Shown: piece after piece, positions 46,439-60,394 of the stretch | Numbering within the stretch: the stretch's first letter is position 1 | Layout of the letters: every line of letters begins with the position of its first letter | Assembly (NCBI GenBank): GCA_013151835.1 | Contig: JAADHK010000127.1 | Location: 1-60,787, forward strand | Reading direction: 5' to 3' | Origin: Deltaproteobacteria bacterium | GTDB lineage: Bacteria; Desulfobacterota; Desulfobacteria; Desulfobacterales; Desulfosalsimonadaceae | Length of the DNA: 60,787 bases | Notes under the pieces: model-generated | What the model saw: only the letters and a program-made list of their open reading frames with translations | Told to the model about the DNA's origin: nothing | Databases searched by the model: none | Program-made: the position numbers and the translations under genes

Positions 46439-48706
46439 TTATGGCAATTTCTTTGAAAGCTCCCTGCAGAGCGGACCCGCATCCGCCGTCGGGCTCCCGT
46501 CAACCGACAAAACCGGCGCCGGGCCCATGAGTGAATTTGTGACAATAACCGCCCAGTCCATATCCAGCTCCCGGCGCATTACCGGTTTTGAATAAATGGT
46601 ATACCCCATGCCGGACAGGATCTCCACAATCCGGCCTTCCATGATCCCCGGCAGAACATGGGGCGATTCCGGCCGTATCACTCTTTTTCCCTTTACCATA
46701 AGGATATTGCCGGTCCCTGTTTCGGATATGGTGCCGTCGGGATTTATAATCAGGGCCTCGTCGGCTCCTCTTTTTTTTGCCCATTTATTTGCAAGAAAAT
46801 AAAAAAGATAATTCAGGGTCTTATGATCGGCAAGAGGACTCTGCCGGGGGTGGGGAAAGGAAGCGAGATCAAGCCCCGGTTTTTTTATCGTATCAAGGCG
46901 ATGTATGTATGGCCTTGCCGAAACCCAGATTCCGTGGTCATACCGAACGGTCTCACCTGTTCCAAAGGTTGCCGTAATCTTTATTGCCGCAAGGCCGTTT
47001 GTGAGGCGATTTGCAATGAGCACCCGTGAAATTATCTCCTCAAACGACAGATCCGGCCGATGGGTCTCGAAAAGCGCGTCCCATGTTTTGTAAAACCGCT
47101 CCAGATGCGCCTCTAAAAACTCGGGTTTCCCGTCTTTTACCCTTATGGTTTCGAAAAAACCGTATCCGTATGCCGCGCCCTTGTCAAAAAACGGAACCAT
47201 TGCCTTTTCTTCTTTTACCACGAGACCATTTTGCCAGACAAAACAACACGGCGCGGCCTTTTTCCCCCGCCCTTTGAAGATATCCATGACCGCCCGACCC
47301 TTGTGAAGGGTCTCCTCGTATTCGTCTCCCGGATCGGAGTCCTGGACAACGCCGCCGCCCACTGAAAAATATAGCCGGCCCTTATATATGGTTGCCGTAC
47401 GGATGGCGATGGAAAGGTCCATTGTATCATGGAAACCGATGTATCCGACGGATCCCGTATAGATATGCCTGCGCGTGGGCTCCAGCTCGTCTATGATCTC
47501 CATGGCCCTGATCCTCGGGCATCCGGTAATTGAACCGCTAGGAAAGGCGGCATAAAGAAGATCGACTATATTTGCTCCGTGGGCGAGTTTCCCTTTTATT
47601 ACGGATACAAGGTGAAAAACATTTTTATAGGCCTCAAGTCGCTTGTGCTCCGTCACGCGCACGGATCCCCGCTCGCAGACCCGTCCCAGATCGTTTCTCA
47701 TGAGATCCACGATCATGGAAAGCTCTGCATCGTCCTTTTTGCTTTCGGCCAGGGCCTGTTTCATTTCATTGTCTTTTTCCGGGGTTTCACCCCTGGGCCT
47801 GGTTCCCTTTATGGGACGGGCTTCAACCATGGAGCCCCTGACCTTTAAAAACCTTTCCATGGACGTGGACACAACATGATGGTCCCCGGCATTTACATAG
47901 GAAAAAAACGGGGCCGGGGCTGCGGCAAAAAGCGCTGCAAACAACGCAAACGGTTGTCCGGAAAAATCGGTTTCAAAACGCTGTGACAGATTCACCTGAT
48001 AGATGTGTCCGGCAGCGATATAATTTTTGATTTTTTCGACTGCCGCCATGTATGAATCCCGATCAAACGGGGACGCAAAGCCGGCCGATCCGCCGAAAAA
48101 TGTTTTCTGAACGGGTGCTGGAGATTTAATGACGGAAAAAAACCAGTCGCGTGCCTGCTTGACACCTTTTTCACCCAGGCTTTTGATCTTTGGGAGATGA
48201 AGCCGGCATTTGCCGGAGCTCTTGTCACATACGACCAGGATTGAGGGGGCATACAGACAGGCAAGGGGAAGATTTAGATCGTCCACACTCGTGCGCGGCA
48301 GTTTTTCTATGTAATCCTTCAGGTCATAGGAGAGGTAGCCGAAAAGCCCGGCTGCCACCGGCATTGCAGCCCCGCCCGGATCAATCGCAAAATAACGCAC
48401 GATATCTCCAATCAGGCTGAGCGGATTTTCACGGCTTGCCAGGGATTTTTCTCCTGCCCCGTTTTCCAGACAAATGATCGTCTCTTCCTTCCTTGCGGTA
48501 AAACAGAGCCATGGTCTTGCGGCAAGAATATGATATTGTGAGCAGTCAAGGTCTCCGCCGCTTGCCAGCACCACGGTGCCCGGAAGATCCGCAAACCTTT
48601 GTGCCATATCGATAAAAGGCATGCCCGAAAAAATGTCCTCGCTGTAGACGGTCTCTATTTTCCCCATATGTTCCAGAAACTCTTTCAATTGGGCGTCCTT
48701 CCACAT
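46439..48706 (-). CDS. pabB: Fused aminodeoxychorismate synthase component I and lyase (PabB-PabC)
   Basis: This 755-residue protein joins two steps of p-aminobenzoate synthesis. Residues about 1-490 are the PabB chorismate-binding domain, with the active lysine in EARPIKGTRPRG and motifs MIVDLMRNDLGRVCERG and SGSITGCPRIRAMEI. Residues about 500-755 are a PLP lyase of the PabC type (FFDKGAAYGYGFFETIRV, catalytic Lys in DHKTLNYL, SETGTGNILMVKG). The pabA stop overlaps its start. The product feeds FolP at 20.8 kb. Confidence 0.93.
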   Translation of the reverse strand: MWKDAQLKEFLEHMGKIETVYSEDIFSGMPFIDMAQRFADLPGTVVLASGGDLDCSQYHILAARPWLCFTARKEETIICLENGAGEKSLASRENPLSLIGDIVRYFAIDPGGAAMPVAAGLFGYLSYDLKDYIEKLPRTSVDDLNLPLACLYAPSILVVCDKSSGKCRLHLPKIKSLGEKGVKQARDWFFSVIKSPAPVQKTFFGGSAGFASPFDRDSYMAAVEKIKNYIAAGHIYQVNLSQRFETDFSGQPFALFAALFAAAPAPFFSYVNAGDHHVVSTSMERFLKVRGSMVEARPIKGTRPRGETPEKDNEMKQALAESKKDDAELSMIVDLMRNDLGRVCERGSVRVTEHKRLEAYKNVFHLVSVIKGKLAHGANIVDLLYAAFPSGSITGCPRIRAMEIIDELEPTRRHIYTGSVGYIGFHDTMDLSIAIRTATIYKGRLYFSVGGGVVQDSDPGDEYEETLHKGRAVMDIFKGRGKKAAPCCFVWQNGLVVKEEKAMVPFFDKGAAYGYGFFETIRVKDGKPEFLEAHLERFYKTWDALFETHRPDLSFEEIISRVLIANRLTNGLAAIKITATFGTGETVRYDHGIWVSARPYIHRLDTIKKPGLDLASFPHPRQSPLADHKTLNYLFYFLANKWAKKRGADEALIINPDGTISETGTGNILMVKGKRVIRPESPHVLPGIMEGRIVEILSGMGYTIYSKPVMRRELDMDWAVIVTNSLMGPAPVLSVDGSPTADAGPLCRELSKKLP

Positions 48707-51231: not shown

Positions 51232-51465
51232 ATGGGTCAAGTAACGATATATCTTGAAAATGAAATTGAAAATAAAATGAAAATAGCCGCTAAAACAAGC
51301 CGGTTATCCGTCAGCAAATGGATTGCAAACATCATTAAGGAAAAAATATCAACGGAATGGCCACAAGATATAGTCATCCTGGCGGGAAGCTGGCAAGATG
51401 ATTTCCCGTCATTGCAGGAAATCCGCTCGACTCATGGAGTTGATTCAAGTCGTGAGGCATTGTAA
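51232..51465 (+). CDS. vapB: VapB-type antitoxin
   Basis: This 77-residue protein has a ribbon-helix-helix start (MGQVTIYLENEIENKMKIAA, then RLSVSKWIANIIKE). The C-terminal tail (WPQDIVILAGSWQDDFPSL) would occupy the toxin active site. AGAGGTG precedes the ATG. It is 2 bp upstream of vapC and the pair is autoregulated in the known family. Confidence 0.85.
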   Translation: MGQVTIYLENEIENKMKIAAKTSRLSVSKWIANIIKEKISTEWPQDIVILAGSWQDDFPSLQEIRSTHGVDSSREAL

Positions 51466-51467
51466 AA

Positions 51468-51860
51468 TTGTATATTCTTGACACCAATACCTTAATTTAT
51501 TTCTTCAAAGGCATGGGCAACGTTGCAGACAACTTACTATCTAAGCAGCCTAAAAACATATTAATCCCATCAATTGTGCTTTATGAGCTTGAAGTGGGAA
51601 TCGCAAAATCGACAAAACCTGACAAAAGAAAAAGCCAATTGAAAACCTTTGTATCACGTGTCAGCATTTCTCCCTTTGGAGAAAAAGAAGCAAAAGCCGC
51701 AGCAATAATAAGGGCCGATCTTGAAAGCAAGGGTACGCCAATCGGCCCCTATGATACGCTTATTGCCGGTATTGCCTTAAGTGCCAATGCAACGCTTGTT
51801 ACCCATAACACAGATGAATTTAAAAGAATCAAAAGCTTAAAGATTGAAGATTGGTATTAG
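51468..51860 (+). CDS. vapC: VapC-type PIN-domain toxin
   Basis: This 130-residue PIN ribonuclease starts with TTG at 51468. It keeps the acidic metal site: Asp in YILDTNTLIYF, Glu in YELEVGIA, Asp in GPYDTLIAG, and a terminal DEF. VapC toxins usually cleave tRNA or rRNA. The vapBC pair sits between the OmpA-type gene and the frameshifted DHH gene. Confidence 0.9.
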   Translation: MYILDTNTLIYFFKGMGNVADNLLSKQPKNILIPSIVLYELEVGIAKSTKPDKRKSQLKTFVSRVSISPFGEKEAKAAAIIRADLESKGTPIGPYDTLIAGIALSANATLVTHNTDEFKRIKSLKIEDWY

Positions 51861-51919: not shown

Positions 51920-52916
51920 TTGAAAAACCCCATGAGTGCTAAAAAAAAGCTAAACAGGCTTCTTGACGCCTTTACCGGGTCCGACCATGTGCTGATTCTT
52001 ATAAATGCGGACCCGGACGCCATTGCCAGCGCCATGGCCCTGGTCAGGATTCTGCGCCGCAGGGTGACCCAGATAACAATTTCCAATATCAACACCATAA
52101 GCCGGCCCGACAACCTGGCCATGATAAGATTGCTTGACGTCACGCTCATCCACGCATCCAAGATTGAGCCCTGTCATTACACGAAATTTGTAATCACCGA
52201 CTCTCAGCCGGACCACAACGAGGCTTTTTCGGGCTTTGATTTTTCAGTTGTAATAGATCACCAAGCCCACCGGTTATCAGGCCCCTGTTTCCGATATCAG
52301 GCCTGAATACGGCGCCAATGCCAGCATCCTTACCGAATACCTGAAAGCCGCCGGCATAAAACCGTCCCAGAAGCTGGCAACCGCGCTTTTTTATGGAATA
52401 AAGACAGATACCAACGATTTTGAACGCGCTGGGGTCGCGGCGGACATGCGGGCCTTTCAACACCTCTTCCCCCTTGCAAATACCTATCTTGCCCGGCGGA
52501 TCGAGCAGGCGGACCTGCGCCTGCCCTATATCGATTATTTCAAGCAGGCCATAGATAACAGGGATATCGCCGGAGACCGGTTTTTCGTCCATCTCGAGGA
52601 TGTGGAAACCCCGGATATACTCGTCCTGGTGGCCGATTTTTTCCTGAGAGTCAATACGGTTACATGGAGTATTGTCTCGGGTGTGTATGAAGACCGCATC
52701 GTTATAATCTTTCGCAACGACGGCCTGAGAAGGGATGCGGGAAAGGTGGCGGCCCGTGCTTTCGTCCGTTTCGGCACGGCCGGGGGGCACAAAAGCATGG
52801 CCAGAGCCGAGTTTTTATTAAACGAAATTGCAACACAGGTTGATATAAATAGACCAGACAAACTCGGGAGTTGGATAAAAGAGAGGGTTGACAGGCTTTT
52901 GGTGAAAACAACGTAG
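51920..52916 (+). pseudogene. DHH-family phosphoesterase, frameshifted at the DHH motif
   Basis: Two frames together make a DHH/DHHA1 protein of about 331 residues. The first (TTG at 51920 or ATG at 51932) has LINADPDAIASAMALVRI and reads to VVIDH; the second continues KPTGYQAPVSDIRPEYGA and ends with the DHHA1 motif GTAGGHKSMARAEF. Between them, GATCACCAAGCCC at about 52257-52269 is 2 nt shorter than an Asp-His-His-Lys-Pro coding version. The first frame stops at 52306. It is either a pseudogene or a sequencing error; the interior is otherwise intact and undecayed. Confidence 0.8.
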
Positions 52917-53002
52917 ATACTACGGCGGGACAAGAAGTTGACGGGGGATGGACGTATTTACGCCGAGGCGGGCACATGAGCCTGCCCCTACGGAAGGGAT
53001 TG

Positions 53003-53782
53003 ATGAAATTGACAAAAGATGGCGCAATACACCTTACCATACTGGGTTCGGGCACCTGCGTACCGTCGCTTTCTCGCAGCGCCTGTTCCGTTTTTTTAAA
53101 AACCAACGGTCAAAACATACTCATCGACGCCGGTCCCGGCACCATGCGCCGGCTTCTGGAAGCCGGGATATCCATTTTTGATATTGATTTTTTCTTTTTA
53201 AGCCATTTTCATCCCGACCACTGCGCCGAAATGGTCCCGTTTCTTTTCGCCAACCGTTATCCGGACATGGGGAAGAGAGGAAAAAAGCTGACCCTTTGCG
53301 GAGGGCCGGGTTTTTCTTCTTTTTTTAACGGGCTGAACGAAATATTTAATAAATGGATAGAGCTTCCCGGCATGCTGGAGACTATGGAGTTGACACCGGG
53401 GCGATATGCGTTTAAGGGTTTTGAACTTGAAGCGGCTGCCGTAAATCACCGTCCTGAGAGCCTGGCTTTCAGGGTTACGAGCCAAAGTAAGGCTACCGTC
53501 GTCTATTCGGGGGATACGGATTTTTCCGAAAACCTGATCGGGCTGTCAAAAAACGCGGACATTTTGATTTGTGAGTCGGCCCTGCCCGATGGAATAAAGG
53601 TTGCCGGCCACATGACTCCCGGACTTGCCGGTAAGACAGCAACGGCCGCCAAGGTAAAGCATCTGGTTCTGACTCATTTTTACCCTGAATGTGACAACGT
53701 TGATATCAAGGCCCAGTGCAGGAAAACCTATGCGGGCCCCCTGACCCTGGCCGAGGATCTGATGACCTTGACGGTTGGGTAG
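53003..53782 (+). CDS. MBL-fold metallo-hydrolase, RNase Z-like
   Basis: This 259-residue protein starts with HLTILGSGTCVPSLSRS and has the metal motif FLSHFHPDHCAEMVPFL, then VVYSGDTDFS and HLVLTHFYPE. Its pattern matches RNase Z-like hydrolases, but substrate and role are open. I start it at the ATG at 53003, preceded by GGAAGGG; a longer start at 52976 lacks a good site. It follows the DHH gene by 86 bp. Confidence 0.85.
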   Translation: MKLTKDGAIHLTILGSGTCVPSLSRSACSVFLKTNGQNILIDAGPGTMRRLLEAGISIFDIDFFFLSHFHPDHCAEMVPFLFANRYPDMGKRGKKLTLCGGPGFSSFFNGLNEIFNKWIELPGMLETMELTPGRYAFKGFELEAAAVNHRPESLAFRVTSQSKATVVYSGDTDFSENLIGLSKNADILICESALPDGIKVAGHMTPGLAGKTATAAKVKHLVLTHFYPECDNVDIKAQCRKTYAGPLTLAEDLMTLTVG

Positions 53783-53922: not shown

Positions 53923-54579
53923 GTGAAATACTACCCCATCATGCTCGACATACGGGAAAAAGACTGCCTGGTCGTAGGCGGCGGTAACGTGGCCTTAAGA
54001 AAGGTGGCCGGCCTTGCGGCCTGCGGCGCCAGGGTCACGGTTGTAAGTGATTCGTTCCTCAGCGAATTTGCTGAACTTGAAGGTAACGACAATATTTTTC
54101 AAATCTGCCGGCCCTATGTTGAATCAGACTTAAACGGCCGGTTTATGGTCATAGGGGCCACAGACAATGAAAACCTTAACCGTGAGATTGCAAAATCCGC
54201 CGGGGAAAAAAGGGTGCTGTGCAATATCGCCGACCTTCCGGACGCTTGCGATTTTATCCTGCCGTCCATTGTCTGCCGCGGCGACCTGATCGTCTCTGTT
54301 TCAACTTCGGGAGCAAGCCCGGCATTTGCCAAAAAATTAAGAAAAGACATTGAAAATATCTGCGGTGAGGAATATGGCATTTTTCTACGGCTCATGCGGC
54401 GGATCAGAAAAAAGGCCCTTGCATCCGAACACGCTCCCGAAGAACATAAAGGCCAGTTTGAAACCCTGATTAAAAGCGGCCTTCCCGAAATGATCCAACA
54501 GGGCGATATAAAAGGTATCGACCGGATGCTTTATGATACTTTCGGCCCGGGATATGAATATGAAAGCCTGATGGAATAG
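53923..54579 (+). CDS. Precorrin-2 dehydrogenase / sirohydrochlorin ferrochelatase (Met8/CysG-N type)
   Basis: This 218-residue enzyme oxidises precorrin-2 to sirohydrochlorin and may insert iron to give siroheme. The NAD-binding motif is CLVVGGGNVALRKVAGL near residue 17, with NIADLPDACDFILPS and STSGASPAFAKKLR. The methyltransferase half of CysG is absent. The start is GTG at 53923, with GGAAG before it. It begins a cluster with ccsA/hemX and hemA. Siroheme serves dissimilatory sulfite reductase and the alternative heme route in sulfate reducers. Confidence 0.9.
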   Translation: MKYYPIMLDIREKDCLVVGGGNVALRKVAGLAACGARVTVVSDSFLSEFAELEGNDNIFQICRPYVESDLNGRFMVIGATDNENLNREIAKSAGEKRVLCNIADLPDACDFILPSIVCRGDLIVSVSTSGASPAFAKKLRKDIENICGEEYGIFLRLMRRIRKKALASEHAPEEHKGQFETLIKSGLPEMIQQGDIKGIDRMLYDTFGPGYEYESLME

Positions 54580-54608
54580 GAATTCAACGCACTGCGGCAG
54601 AGGCGACT

Positions 54609-55436
54609 ATGACAACAAATACACTATTAATCCCGGCCCTGATGCTTTACCTGGCCGGTTCGGCAGGCTATGTTTTATTCTTCTTAGTGCAAAAGGAATC
54701 CTGGTACAGAGCCGGTTTCATATCCGTGCTGGCCGGTTTTTTGTTTCACACCTGCGCCATAGGGTATAAATATGCACACGGCGGCAGGCTCCCTGTTGCA
54801 AATCTTCATGAAACGATTCTCTTTGCGGCCTGGATTCTTGCCGGTTTCTTTATCCTTATCCGTTACCGGGGCAGGGTAAAAATACTCGGCGTTTTTGCGG
54901 TACCCCTCGTAGCCCTGATGACAGGGGCCGCCATCCTTTTACCCGATACCATAGTAAACCTTAAAACCCCGTTTAACAGTATCTGGTTATTTATTCACAT
55001 AATACTGATCTTCACGGGTGAGGCGGCTCTGGCCCTGGCCTGCGGCACCGCGATTCTATATCTCATCCAGGAACGCGCCATCAAGACAAAGAGCAACCGT
55101 TTCTTTTTTAAAAGACTCCCCTCTCTTGAAATGCTGGACAGCACGGGTTACGCATTTATCGTCGGCGGGTTTACCGCGCTCACCATAGGCCTGATCAGTG
55201 GTTTCGTATATGCCCGCCAGGCATGGGGTCATTTCTGGTCATGGGATCCAAAGGAGGTCTGGTCGGGGATATCCTGGCTGATTTACGCAGCTCTCCTGCA
55301 TGAACGTATTGTTGCCGGGTGGCGGGGAAGAAGGGCCGCCATTTTAGCAATTGCGGGATTTATTATCCTGGTTTTCACATTTCTGGGCGTAAGCCTCTTT
55401 CTCGGAGGGCATCACTATGAATTCACGAGGTGGTAA
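54609..55436 (+). CDS. CcsA/HemX-type cytochrome assembly membrane protein
   Basis: This 275-residue protein has about eight membrane helices. The heme-handling WWD-like motif reads WGHFWSWDPKEVWSGISWLIYA and conserved His residues precede and follow it (GGRLPVANLHETI, LLHERIVAGWRG). In this position, just before hemA, HemX-type proteins are common. Whether it acts on cytochrome c or on HemA levels is not decided. It overlaps the hemA longer frame. Confidence 0.88.
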   Translation: MTTNTLLIPALMLYLAGSAGYVLFFLVQKESWYRAGFISVLAGFLFHTCAIGYKYAHGGRLPVANLHETILFAAWILAGFFILIRYRGRVKILGVFAVPLVALMTGAAILLPDTIVNLKTPFNSIWLFIHIILIFTGEAALALACGTAILYLIQERAIKTKSNRFFFKRLPSLEMLDSTGYAFIVGGFTALTIGLISGFVYARQAWGHFWSWDPKEVWSGISWLIYAALLHERIVAGWRGRRAAILAIAGFIILVFTFLGVSLFLGGHHYEFTRW

Positions 55437-55437
55437 C

Positions 55438-56739
55438 ATGCCCTCCGGGCCGAACCGGGAAAAAGCCCGTATCGTTATTGCCGGAATAAATCACAACACG
55501 GCCCCACTTGAATTGCGCGAGAAACTGTCTTTTTCGAACGGGGAAACCGTTGAGGCTATCCTTGAACTGAAATCCATGGTCGAAATCAGGGAGGTTATAA
55601 TAATCTCCACGTGCAACCGGATGGAAGTGATGATGACAGCCGATGACCCCGACAAGGCGGTTGCCCGATTCAAGGCATATCTTTCATCCACCCGGTCCAT
55701 GCCGCCTGCCGACTTTGAGGGCGCGTTATATATCCATAAAGATGACGAGGCCGTATCTCATATATTCAAGGTGGCCGCAAGTCTCGACTCCATGATCGTC
55801 GGAGAACCGCAGATCCTCGGCCAGCTCAAGCAGGCGTATCAATCCGCCGTTGGTGCAAAGGGCACCGGCGTCATACTGAATCGTGTTATGCACAAGGCAT
55901 TTTTCACGGCAAAGTGCATCCGGAGCGAGACGGGTATCGGCAGCAGGGCCGTATCCATAAGTTACGCGGCAGTCGAGCTTGCCAAAAAAATCTTCGGGCG
56001 GCTAAACGAAAAGACCATTTTACTCATAGGAGCAGGAGAAATGGCCGAGCTTGCCGTGGCTCACCTGATTCACAACCACGCGGACGGCCGCCGGTACATT
56101 GCAAACAGGACGTTTGCCACTGGCGAAGCACTTGCCAGGAGATTTAACGGCCAGGCCATACGGTTTGAAGAAATAGAAGATACGCTTGTTTCCGCCGACA
56201 TAATAATAAGTTCCACCGGAGCGCCCGGGTTTATCATCAACGCCAAGAAGATCAAGCCGGTAATGCGGGCCAGGAGAAACCGACCCCTGTTTTTCATCGA
56301 TATTGCCGTCCCGAGGGACATTGATCCCGGCATAAACCGCATAGATAACGCGTATGTTTATGATATAGACGATTTAAACGGTGTGATCGATGAAAACATG
56401 GACGCACGGCACAAGGAATCCATCAAGGCGGAAAGGATAATCGACCAGGCGGTTATCCGGTTCAGGCAATGGTACGACGGCCTGGATATCGTTCCCACGG
56501 TAAAGGCGCTTCATGATCGGCTTTCTTTCATTGCGGATGCTGAAATTAAACGTACACTTCCCGGGCTTGACAAATTTTCCGAAACCGACGCCCTCGCCCT
56601 TAAGCGGATGACGGAAGCCATGATTAAAAAATTTCTCCACCACCCCACCCTTTTTCTAAAAAACACCGGCTCTCACACCGACAAGGCCCTTTATCTCGAT
56701 ATAACCCGCCGTCTTTTTCATCTCGAACCGGATGAGTAA
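55438..56739 (+). CDS. hemA: Glutamyl-tRNA reductase HemA
   Basis: This 433-residue enzyme reduces glutamyl-tRNA to glutamate-1-semialdehyde, the first tetrapyrrole step. The motifs are IVIAGINHNTAPLELREKLSF, the catalytic Cys in IISTCNRMEV, EPQILGQLKQAY and the NADPH motif LIGAGEMAELA. I chose the ATG at 55438, preceded by GAGGTGG; a start at 55417 lies inside the upstream gene. hemC/hemB are not in the window. Confidence 0.95.
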   Translation: MPSGPNREKARIVIAGINHNTAPLELREKLSFSNGETVEAILELKSMVEIREVIIISTCNRMEVMMTADDPDKAVARFKAYLSSTRSMPPADFEGALYIHKDDEAVSHIFKVAASLDSMIVGEPQILGQLKQAYQSAVGAKGTGVILNRVMHKAFFTAKCIRSETGIGSRAVSISYAAVELAKKIFGRLNEKTILLIGAGEMAELAVAHLIHNHADGRRYIANRTFATGEALARRFNGQAIRFEEIEDTLVSADIIISSTGAPGFIINAKKIKPVMRARRNRPLFFIDIAVPRDIDPGINRIDNAYVYDIDDLNGVIDENMDARHKESIKAERIIDQAVIRFRQWYDGLDIVPTVKALHDRLSFIADAEIKRTLPGLDKFSETDALALKRMTEAMIKKFLHHPTLFLKNTGSHTDKALYLDITRRLFHLEPDE

Positions 56740-57482: not shown

Positions 57483-57525
57483 AATAAGTAAAGTATAGAT
57501 TTTTCAGTTGCATACTTGCAAGAAA

Positions 57526-58059
57526 ATGAAAAGCAGGGGAGAAAGTTTTGAGAGCAAAAAACAGCCGCAAAAAAACGGCGTTGTTTTTCGAACCCCAAAA
57601 ATACCAGATGGCAAATATTTTTGGGAAATCGCTAAGACATCCAAAGTATTGGATGTCAACTCACTATACCACTATCTGATTATCTGCCGCCATTTTGGCA
57701 AAACATGCATCGCCGCTGAAAAGCAAGGGCATGTTATCGGATTTGTCACAGCCTATATCCCACCGGGCTCACCGGATTCATTATTTGTCTGGCAGGTGGC
57801 AGTTGATGAAAAGGAACGCGGTCAGGGCGTCGGCCTCAAAATGCTGACAAATGCGTTTAACAACTTGAAAGAATTAAATATTAAAAATATGGATACAACT
57901 ATCACGCCTTCTAATCAAGCATCAATTAACCTTTTTACCGCAGTGGCCAGAGAGTTGAACCTACCTTTTGAATTTGAGAAAGAATTCTTTTCAGCGACAA
58001 CTTTTGGACAAAATAACCATGAACCGGAAATACTCTTTCATATCGGATCGGGTTTTTAA
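57526..58059 (+). CDS. ectA: L-2,4-diaminobutyrate acetyltransferase EctA
   Basis: This 177-residue GNAT enzyme acetylates diaminobutyrate in ectoine synthesis. The acetyl-CoA motif is QVAVDEKERGQGVGLKML and the C-terminal ATTFG is typical of EctA. RTPKIPDGKYFWEIAK and SLYHYLIICRHFG match the family N-terminus. I start it at the ATG at 57526; a TTG at 57508 is in frame. It begins ectABC. Confidence 0.9.
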   Translation: MKSRGESFESKKQPQKNGVVFRTPKIPDGKYFWEIAKTSKVLDVNSLYHYLIICRHFGKTCIAAEKQGHVIGFVTAYIPPGSPDSLFVWQVAVDEKERGQGVGLKMLTNAFNNLKELNIKNMDTTITPSNQASINLFTAVARELNLPFEFEKEFFSATTFGQNNHEPEILFHIGSGF

Positions 58060-58089
58060 TGAATTTGTATAATTAAAGAAAGGAGTTAC

Positions 58090-59364
58090 ATGAGAATTTT
58101 TGAACAGATTGAATCACGCGTCAGGGGGTACGTCAGATCTTTTCCGGTAATATTTGAATCATCTGAAGGGTCGCTTATGATTGATGAATCCGGAAGACAA
58201 TACATCGATTTTTTTGCCGGAGCCGGCACGCTCAATTACGGCCATAACAATGAACGCATCAACAATGCGTTGATTGAATATATCAAGAATAAGGGTCCGT
58301 TTCACACTCTGGATATGGCTACCACGGCTAAAAAGAAGTTTTTGACAAAACTTAATGACACTATTTTGCAGCCGCGAAACCTTGATTACAAGGTTCAGTT
58401 TACCGGCCCCACGGGTACCAATACGGTGGAAACAGCAATAAAACTGGCTCGGATGATCAAGGGGCGGTCAAACATTGTTTCGTTTACCAATGGATATCAT
58501 GGCCTGACCATGGGGTCCCTTTCCATTACCGGAAATACCTTTTATCGTGATGAGGCATATATCAGCCGGTCAAATGTCAGCTTTATGCCATATGACAGTT
58601 ATCTGGGCCCTGATGTCAGCACCATGGATTATTTCCGGAAACTGCTGGCTGATAACAGCAGCGGCCTTGATTTACCGGCTGCTGTGATTGTCGAGACTAT
58701 CCAGGCGGAGGGCGGAGTTAACATTGCCAGCTCGGAATGGCTCAGGGAGCTGGCTGTGGTGTGCTATGAGTTTGATATCCTGCTTATTGTTGATGATATT
58801 CAGGTGGGCAATGGACGCGCTGGCGATTTTTTCAGTTTTGAGGAATCAGGTATTAAGCCCGATATGGTGACCCTGTCCAAGGCCATCGGCGGCGGTCTGC
58901 CCATGGCGCTGCTTCTTTTTCGTCAGGACCTGGACCAGTGGAAACCGGGAGAGCATACCGGAACATTCCGGGGCAACAATCTGGCATTTGTGGCGGCCTG
59001 CGAATGTCTTCAATACTGGGATAATATGGATCTGGGTAATGCGATCAAACATAAATTCAAGATAATGAAAAAAGGAATTGAGGCGATTGTTAAAAAATTT
59101 CCTGAACTCAATGCGGCAGTTCGGGGTCGCGGCATGATCTTCGGTCTTGAAATTCCGGAAAGGGGATTTTGTTCACAGATTTCTGAACGATGTTTTGAAA
59201 ATGGTCTGATCATTGAGCTTGCCGGTGCGGATGACCAAGTGCTTAAGTTTCTGCCGCCGCTGGTCATTGATGAAGAAACCCTTTTAAAGGGCATTGCCAT
59301 TGTCGAGCAATCCATTGGCGAACTTGTTGAAGAAAAAAAGGGGAAACTCACAGGAGAAATGTAA
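58090..59364 (+). CDS. ectB: Diaminobutyrate--2-oxoglutarate aminotransferase EctB
   Basis: This 424-residue PLP enzyme makes diaminobutyrate from aspartate semialdehyde. The N-terminus MRIFEQIESRVRGYVRSFP is characteristic of EctB. FFAGAGTLNYGHNN, GPTGTNTVETAIKLAR, IVDDIQVGNGRAGDFF and the PLP lysine in TLSKAIGGGLPMALLL are present. GGAG precedes the ATG. Its stop overlaps the ectC start. Confidence 0.95.
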   Translation: MRIFEQIESRVRGYVRSFPVIFESSEGSLMIDESGRQYIDFFAGAGTLNYGHNNERINNALIEYIKNKGPFHTLDMATTAKKKFLTKLNDTILQPRNLDYKVQFTGPTGTNTVETAIKLARMIKGRSNIVSFTNGYHGLTMGSLSITGNTFYRDEAYISRSNVSFMPYDSYLGPDVSTMDYFRKLLADNSSGLDLPAAVIVETIQAEGGVNIASSEWLRELAVVCYEFDILLIVDDIQVGNGRAGDFFSFEESGIKPDMVTLSKAIGGGLPMALLLFRQDLDQWKPGEHTGTFRGNNLAFVAACECLQYWDNMDLGNAIKHKFKIMKKGIEAIVKKFPELNAAVRGRGMIFGLEIPERGFCSQISERCFENGLIIELAGADDQVLKFLPPLVIDEETLLKGIAIVEQSIGELVEEKKGKLTGEM

Positions 59365-59753
59365 TGTTAGTCAGGACGCTGGAAGAGATTATCGGATCAG
59401 AAAATGATATTGCCGCAGAAACCGGAACATGGGCAAGTCGGCGTATGCTTTTGAAGAAAGACGGCATGGGGTTCTCATTTCATGACACCACTATATTTGC
59501 CGGTACTACAACTCTCATCTGGTATAAAAATCACCTGGAGGCGGTTTATTGCGTGGCTGGTGAAGGTGAGTTGCAACTTATTGAAACCGGAGAGATTTTT
59601 AAAATTAAGGACGGTACCATGTATGCTTTAAACAAGCATGAGAAACATTATTTGCGGGCTTTTTCGGATATGCGGATGATCTGCGTGTTTAATCCACCGT
59701 TGACAGGCAAAGAGGTCCATGACAAGGAGGGAGTTTACCCGTTGGTAGAATGA
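59364..59753 (+). CDS. ectC: Ectoine synthase EctC
   Basis: This 129-residue cupin cyclises N-acetyl-diaminobutyrate to ectoine. The motifs MLVRTLEEIIGSENDI, WASRRMLLKKDGMGFSFHDT, EAVYCVAGEGELQ and KHEKHYLRAF match EctC. No ectD hydroxylase or ask aspartokinase follows. Confidence 0.95.
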   Translation: MLVRTLEEIIGSENDIAAETGTWASRRMLLKKDGMGFSFHDTTIFAGTTTLIWYKNHLEAVYCVAGEGELQLIETGEIFKIKDGTMYALNKHEKHYLRAFSDMRMICVFNPPLTGKEVHDKEGVYPLVE

Positions 59754-59863: not shown

Positions 59864-60394
59864 ATGAACAACAAGAGTAAGGAGCAACCTTTATCAAAAG
59901 AGGTTTTAATTGCGCTTCGACGGATTATGCGGGCCATTGACCTGCATTCCAAGTCGCTCGTTAAAAAATATGGCATAACCGGACCTCAGCTTGTTATCCT
60001 GCAAGAGCTGTCAGGACACAAGGAAATTTCTGTCGGAGAATTAGCCAAAACAGTTAGCCTGGGGCAGGCAACGGTAACGGGCGTTTTGAATCGTCTTGAA
60101 AAAAGAGGGTATATTGCCAGAAGGCGTAGTGAAAAAGACAAACGACGTGTTTTTGTCAGAGCCACCGAAACGTGTCAAAAATTACTCGATGAAGCGCCTT
60201 CCCCTCTTCAGGAAACATTTTTAAATCAATTTGAGAGGCTGCAAAATTGGGAACAGCATATGGCCTTAAGCGCTCTTCAGCGAATGGTTGTAATGATGGA
60301 TGCTAAAGCAATAGACGCGGCTCCCATACTTGCAACAGGCCCGGTGAATTTTTCTACTGGCGAATCGCGAGATTACGGCCCGCAATCAAATTAA
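59864..60394 (+). CDS. ectR: MarR-family regulator, EctR-like
   Basis: This 176-residue winged-helix protein has ALRRIMRAIDLHSKSLVKKY, the helix-turn-helix SVGELAKTVSLGQATVTGVL and the wing RRRSEKDKRRVFV. The start and position match EctR1-type repressors of ectoine operons, although those are usually upstream of ectA. A CTGACA-17-TAAAAT promoter lies in the 110-bp gap. Control of ectABC is inferred from position. Confidence 0.8.
   Translation: MNNKSKEQPLSKEVLIALRRIMRAIDLHSKSLVKKYGITGPQLVILQELSGHKEISVGELAKTVSLGQATVTGVLNRLEKRGYIARRRSEKDKRRVFVRATETCQKLLDEAPSPLQETFLNQFERLQNWEQHMALSALQRMVVMMDAKAIDAAPILATGPVNFSTGESRDYGPQSN

Follow-up and report, generated by a model that had tools for sequence, protein, structure and literature searches.

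An isolated frameshift at the DHH motif of a DHH-DHHA1 gene in a Desulfosalsimonadaceae genome

The described systems closest to the gene reported here are the nanoRNase/pAp phosphatase NrnA and TmPDE of T. maritima, to which the relatives of this gene are alike in their DHH domain and GGH motif. In NrnA, metal 1 is bound by the first histidine of the DHH motif and the second histidine is free for substrate contact, as stated in an excerpt of PMC5593865. In a DHH-DHHA1 enzyme of Deinococcus (the RecJ-like protein of D. radiodurans), alanine at 'these residues' almost completely inactivates the protein; in the excerpted text of PMC11229311 the phrase follows the metal ligands and the second histidine, and from this wording we infer that the second histidine was among the residues substituted. 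The locus described below differs from NrnA and TmPDE in that its closest intact relative (L007) falls far below the NrnA cut-off and in that the broken copy itself is without an intact DHH motif.

We analysed a window of 60,787 nucleotides (bases 1-60787 of contig C80) from a genome of 3.33 Mb in 147 contigs that is 97.6% complete. Reading of the sequence revealed a DHH-DHHA1 phosphoesterase gene at 51932-52916 on the forward strand that is split into two frames. By reading and alignment, the first part (51932-52261, +) covers the DHH domain from its N-terminal side, including the NADPD and DSQPD motifs, up to the Asp-His of DHH. Its frame, open from 51920 or 51932, reads ...FSVVIDH up to 52261, with Asp-His encoded at 52256-52261, and then adds 14 unrelated codons before the TGA stop at 52304-52306. 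The alignment suggests that the ATG at 51932 is a likelier gene start than the TTG at 51920. The second part (52263-52916, +), delimited by reading, alignment and frame scan, is open in the +1 frame and holds the rest of the DHH domain together with a DHHA1-like domain; it reads KPTGYQAPVSDIRPEYGA...GGHKSMA..., its protein starts with KPTGYQAP, and the first start codon in this frame is the ATG at 52446. Between the halves a single base, 52262, belongs to neither of them. At the break point (52256-52265, +; reading and alignment) the gene thus lacks two bases, at the second histidine of DHH, compared to intact relatives. No base run at the site exceeds three, and the chance of a break landing in the nine bases of the motif is about 1% (9/985 nt), a figure calculated post hoc.

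A coding-frame scan trained on the long ORFs of the same genome placed the frame switch at 52238/52257. Because of this placement, and because the two halves have their matches in the same genes of relatives, they are more than a chance overlap of ORFs. These results bear out the original prediction in its coordinates, in a 2-nt deficit at the DHH motif and in two otherwise clean halves, both of which are open and match relatives, with GGHKSMA present in the C half. It had also read Asp-His-His-Lys at the junction, which the relatives contradict: DHH is followed by Pro, Glu, Asp, Ser or Thr in these genes and never by Lys, so that DHHK is no motif of the family. An antisense ORF of 198 aa (52194-52790, -), which was scored as coding, extends across the break. 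This ORF probably shadows the DHH gene and could mislead automatic annotation.

The C half was searched against 60 genomes, made up of its own, 35 further members of its family and 24 from its order, the genomes compared representing other genera of that family and order. At E 0.001 it was matched in 56 of the 60 (55/59 others), a few of these matches being weak or cut by contig ends, and same-family matches showed 48-68% identity with E values of 2.1e-25 or better. This search found no second copy of the broken gene in its own genome. Genes of 32 relatives were taken for alignment, comprising 29 loci from the C-half search (L007-L035; lower-ranked matches were left out) and three loci from named records (L036-L038, on a contig labelled Desulfatirhabdium butyrativorans MAG and two Halodesulfovibrio contigs). 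DHH and GGH lie in a single frame in all 32, one of which (L009) is truncated by its contig end, and the break arrangement is carried by none. When the two halves were joined by X and aligned with these relatives, the junction columns had no gap compared to L007. Internal stops in the C-half matches of two genomes (G013 and G021) proved to be the normal stops of the proteins, the match extending one codon beyond. A search with the N half gave matches in 32 of the 36 family genomes, own included (31/35 others); 29 of the 31 matches in other genomes were strong (E 2e-34 or better), those in G029 and G026 being weak. The strong matches had 60-74% identity, no stops within the match, and open frames of 201-385 aa compared to 128 aa here. 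Together, these results establish a frame break in the assembled sequence and its absence from the relatives examined, the orthologues being intact and the frame broken here only (32/32 relatives; 29 strong matches).

We found that the N half reached 22.2 bits with the Pfam DHH model, below the cut-off of 28.1, the second histidine of D-H-H being lost from the broken copy; the same gene scored above the cut-off in all four relatives scanned. The Pfam DHHA1 model did not match the C half though GGHKSMA is present, and it reached E 0.001 in one of the four relatives (25.8 bits, cut-off 25.9), the GGH motif itself being present in 32/32. Neither half matched NCBIfam NF053633 (NrnA). On L007, the single intact relative scanned with NCBIfam, this model gave 21.2 bits against a cut-off of 350, and no NCBIfam model exceeded its cut-off. 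For the relative L008, the best solved-structure match was TmPDE (5o1u, E 3.5e-5; 5o4z, named TM1595, E 2.1e-4), in the DHH region. The relatives L007-L038 form an unnamed DHH-DHHA1 subfamily, whose genes are often neighbours of an RNase Z-like hydrolase and of siroheme/CcsA/HemA genes. Among the titles examined on NrnA and DHH phosphoesterases, none dealt with this gene, which does not prove its absence from print.

Elsewhere in the genome, four other places carry a DHH domain and four a DHHA1 domain above the Pfam cut-offs. An intact DHH-DHHA1 paralogue of 325 aa lies on contig C33, between rbfA and truB and near infB, rpsO (recognized by eye) and pnp; the rbfA-truB location is one that we take to be typical of nrnA. 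Its best match was the NrnA model, at 108.6 bits below the strict cut-off of 350, and across 175 residues it was 27% identical to one of the intact relatives of the broken gene. A search of the genome for an Orn-type backup gave no RNase_T match, and a search for a defence link gave no PADLOC match for the four proteins submitted. These sequence comparisons make the broken gene a second and divergent DHH-DHHA1 paralogue of putative phosphoesterase function. Should the C33 gene carry out the turnover of nanoRNA or pAp, loss of the broken gene alone would not end it. The suggestion that its loss may matter for signalling is weakened by the intact NrnA-like gene on C33 and by L007 falling under all NCBIfam cut-offs.

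The neighbourhood was surveyed in stretches from 20 relatives, with detection at E 1e-8. The usual next gene encodes a metallo-beta-lactamase-fold protein (52976-53782, +), RNase Z-like by a profile match below the model cut-off, which is found downstream in 16 of the 20. Beyond it lie the other usual neighbours, siroheme-synthase-like, CcsA-like and HemA genes (53923-56739, +; open frames, profile match), detected in 19/20 relatives, while PabB is upstream in 14/20. The gene order DHH, metallo-hydrolase, siroheme-synthase-like, CcsA and HemA is widely kept. The PabB-like protein of the window (46439-48706) has a C-terminal PabC-like stretch (94.1 bits with the aminodeoxychorismate lyase model, cut-off 176.85). 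An ectoine cluster, ectA-ectB-ectC, is located at 57508-59753 and is followed by a 176-aa ORF (59864-60394) that resembles a MarR-type regulator by eye.

A VapBC-like toxin-antitoxin pair (51232-51860, +) immediately precedes the broken gene, with 59 bases between its end and the TTG at 51920. The toxin was assigned by a PIN / VapC match (NF047863, 138.3 bits against a cut-off of 140) and the antitoxin, which had no family match, by position and size; the pair was not detected in the stretches of the 20 relatives. One might guess that its arrival altered expression of the DHH gene, relaxing its constraint. A short PIN-domain-like fragment, recognized by eye on C33 (about 26.4-26.7 kb; L064 6398-6713) and without a start near its beginning, is a possible VapC relic.

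Since the second frame has stayed open and similar to its relatives, we considered programmed ribosomal frameshifting or transcriptional slippage yielding a full-length protein, the former having been offered in the original prediction. Enumeration of the single +1 and -2 shifts within the overlap (codons ending 52255 to 52303) revealed that none restores D-H-H. Furthermore, no long slippery run is present at the site, and no examined relative shares the arrangement. Neither the conserved arrangement nor the restored signature motif of a programmed frameshift was thus found, and recoding is very improbable. A recoded full-length product would be without the second histidine and, by the histidine roles in NrnA and the D. 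radiodurans enzyme given in the excerpts of PMC5593865 and PMC11229311, would probably be inactive too. It is harder still to credit that recoding yields a DHH-DHHA1 protein of this kind, catalytically dead and ligand-binding, which the lineage retains for a regulatory role. The later ATG at 52446 in the second frame would allow the two halves to act as separate proteins, or the N half to take on a new role. However, the frame switch falls inside the DHH domain, and a C protein begun at 52446 would lose about 60 conserved residues, making such a division of labour highly implausible.

The age of the break was estimated from protein trees of the two halves and five neighbouring control genes, with 14 to 20 relatives each. 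The terminal branch of the sequence itself made up 5.5% of total tree length for the N half and 9.2% for the C half, compared to 6.8% for the metallo-hydrolase, 9.3% for the siroheme-synthase-like protein, 7.5% for CcsA, 8.7% for HemA and 9.2% for PabB. The shares of both halves are thus at or below, or like, those of the neighbouring genes, which points to a recent break or to an error absent from the organism; an old pseudogene was rejected, the shares being unremarkable compared to the controls. In otherwise invariant columns, the N half departed at 1/110 and the C half at 5/213 (2.3%), whereas the controls departed at 0.8-1.2% (metallo-hydrolase 2/257, siroheme-synthase-like 2/218, CcsA 3/272, HemA 5/427 and PabB 6/486). 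The C-half departures per column, about twice those of the controls, weakly favour a loss of somewhat greater age over an error, with five events only. The C half ranked first of 21 in departure count, and HemA and PabB were likewise first in theirs. Overall, these sequences bear no clear trace of relaxed constraint.

If the break is an error, the gene and the enzyme of the organism would be intact and the two-base gap would stem from the assembler, low coverage or mixed strains. Assembly quality was assessed with the coding-frame scan, a seven-state model with hexamer scores trained on the same sequence, over 240,799 bases (the window and 180,012 further bases). The scan gave 47 same-strand frame switches, which were judged, where not read individually, solely by whether the stop of the first frame lay more than 20 bases past the switch. 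Two passed, one in the DHH gene and one on C33 (near 9.4 kb), the second of which proved to be the boundary of two ordinary genes; a switch on C50 near 17.9 kb was likewise dismissed as a boundary of ordinary neighbouring genes. A third place that was read, on C33 near 26.4 kb, turned out to be the short PIN-domain-like fragment described above. No other clear frameshift was found in the 240,799 bases, at a sensitivity of 168 of 300 simulated two-base deletions (about 56%; 56/100 in each of three runs), so that nearly half of true breaks could escape. This sensitivity control replaced an earlier one that required no start codon near the switch and was too strict (switch visible in 41/60, passing in 4/60). 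Because no base run at the site exceeds three and the scan gave no other clear frameshift, the assembly does not look indel-prone. These two observations speak against a consensus or assembly error, although a single error would still be compatible with both; one clear break in 240,799 bases could be a real pseudogene or equally a rare error. On the other side, the branch shares resemble those of intact neighbours, most of the family retains the gene, the genome is fragmented into 147 contigs, and many putative pseudogenes stem from assembly errors, according to an excerpt of PMC11017572. A consensus error accounts for a recent-looking, isolated break equally well, and we regard it as a substantial possibility short of probable. 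Slippage in a CAC-CAC repeat, as proposed from the sequence, fits poorly, since the loss of one triplet unit, at three bases, would leave the frame unchanged.

We cautiously favour, as somewhat probable, an ordinary frameshift in which a recent inactivating deletion struck the DHH-DHHA1 gene of one lineage. A two-base deletion would have hit a conserved, single-copy gene and left a young pseudogene, and the break would be present in the cells. The product would stop soon after the motif, without DHHA1, and would be inactive; such a loss of function fits the alanine substitutions in the Deinococcus enzyme, as worded in the excerpt of PMC11229311. The loss may be tolerated because the NrnA-like paralogue on C33 remains. 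Tolerated loss is less expected because the N half is kept in all 18 family genomes with completeness of 90% or more and contamination of 5% or less, own included. Of the three origins originally proposed, recent inactivation and an assembly or consensus error both stand, while the programmed shift finds no support, none of the enumerated single shifts restoring D-H-H.

Taken alone, the broken gene matters little; its annotation should name a frameshifted DHH-DHHA1 gene and warn of a possible assembly error. The point worth keeping is an uncharacterised DHH-DHHA1 gene whose neighbours, in most of the 20 relatives, are an RNase Z-like hydrolase and the siroheme/CcsA/HemA genes. There is no sign of a new mechanism. 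Like frameshift pseudogenes and like the false pseudogenes of assemblies, the locus has one small indel in an otherwise normal gene, in one assembly only, and it differs from ordinary frameshift pseudogenes solely in the position of the break on the signature motif of its family.
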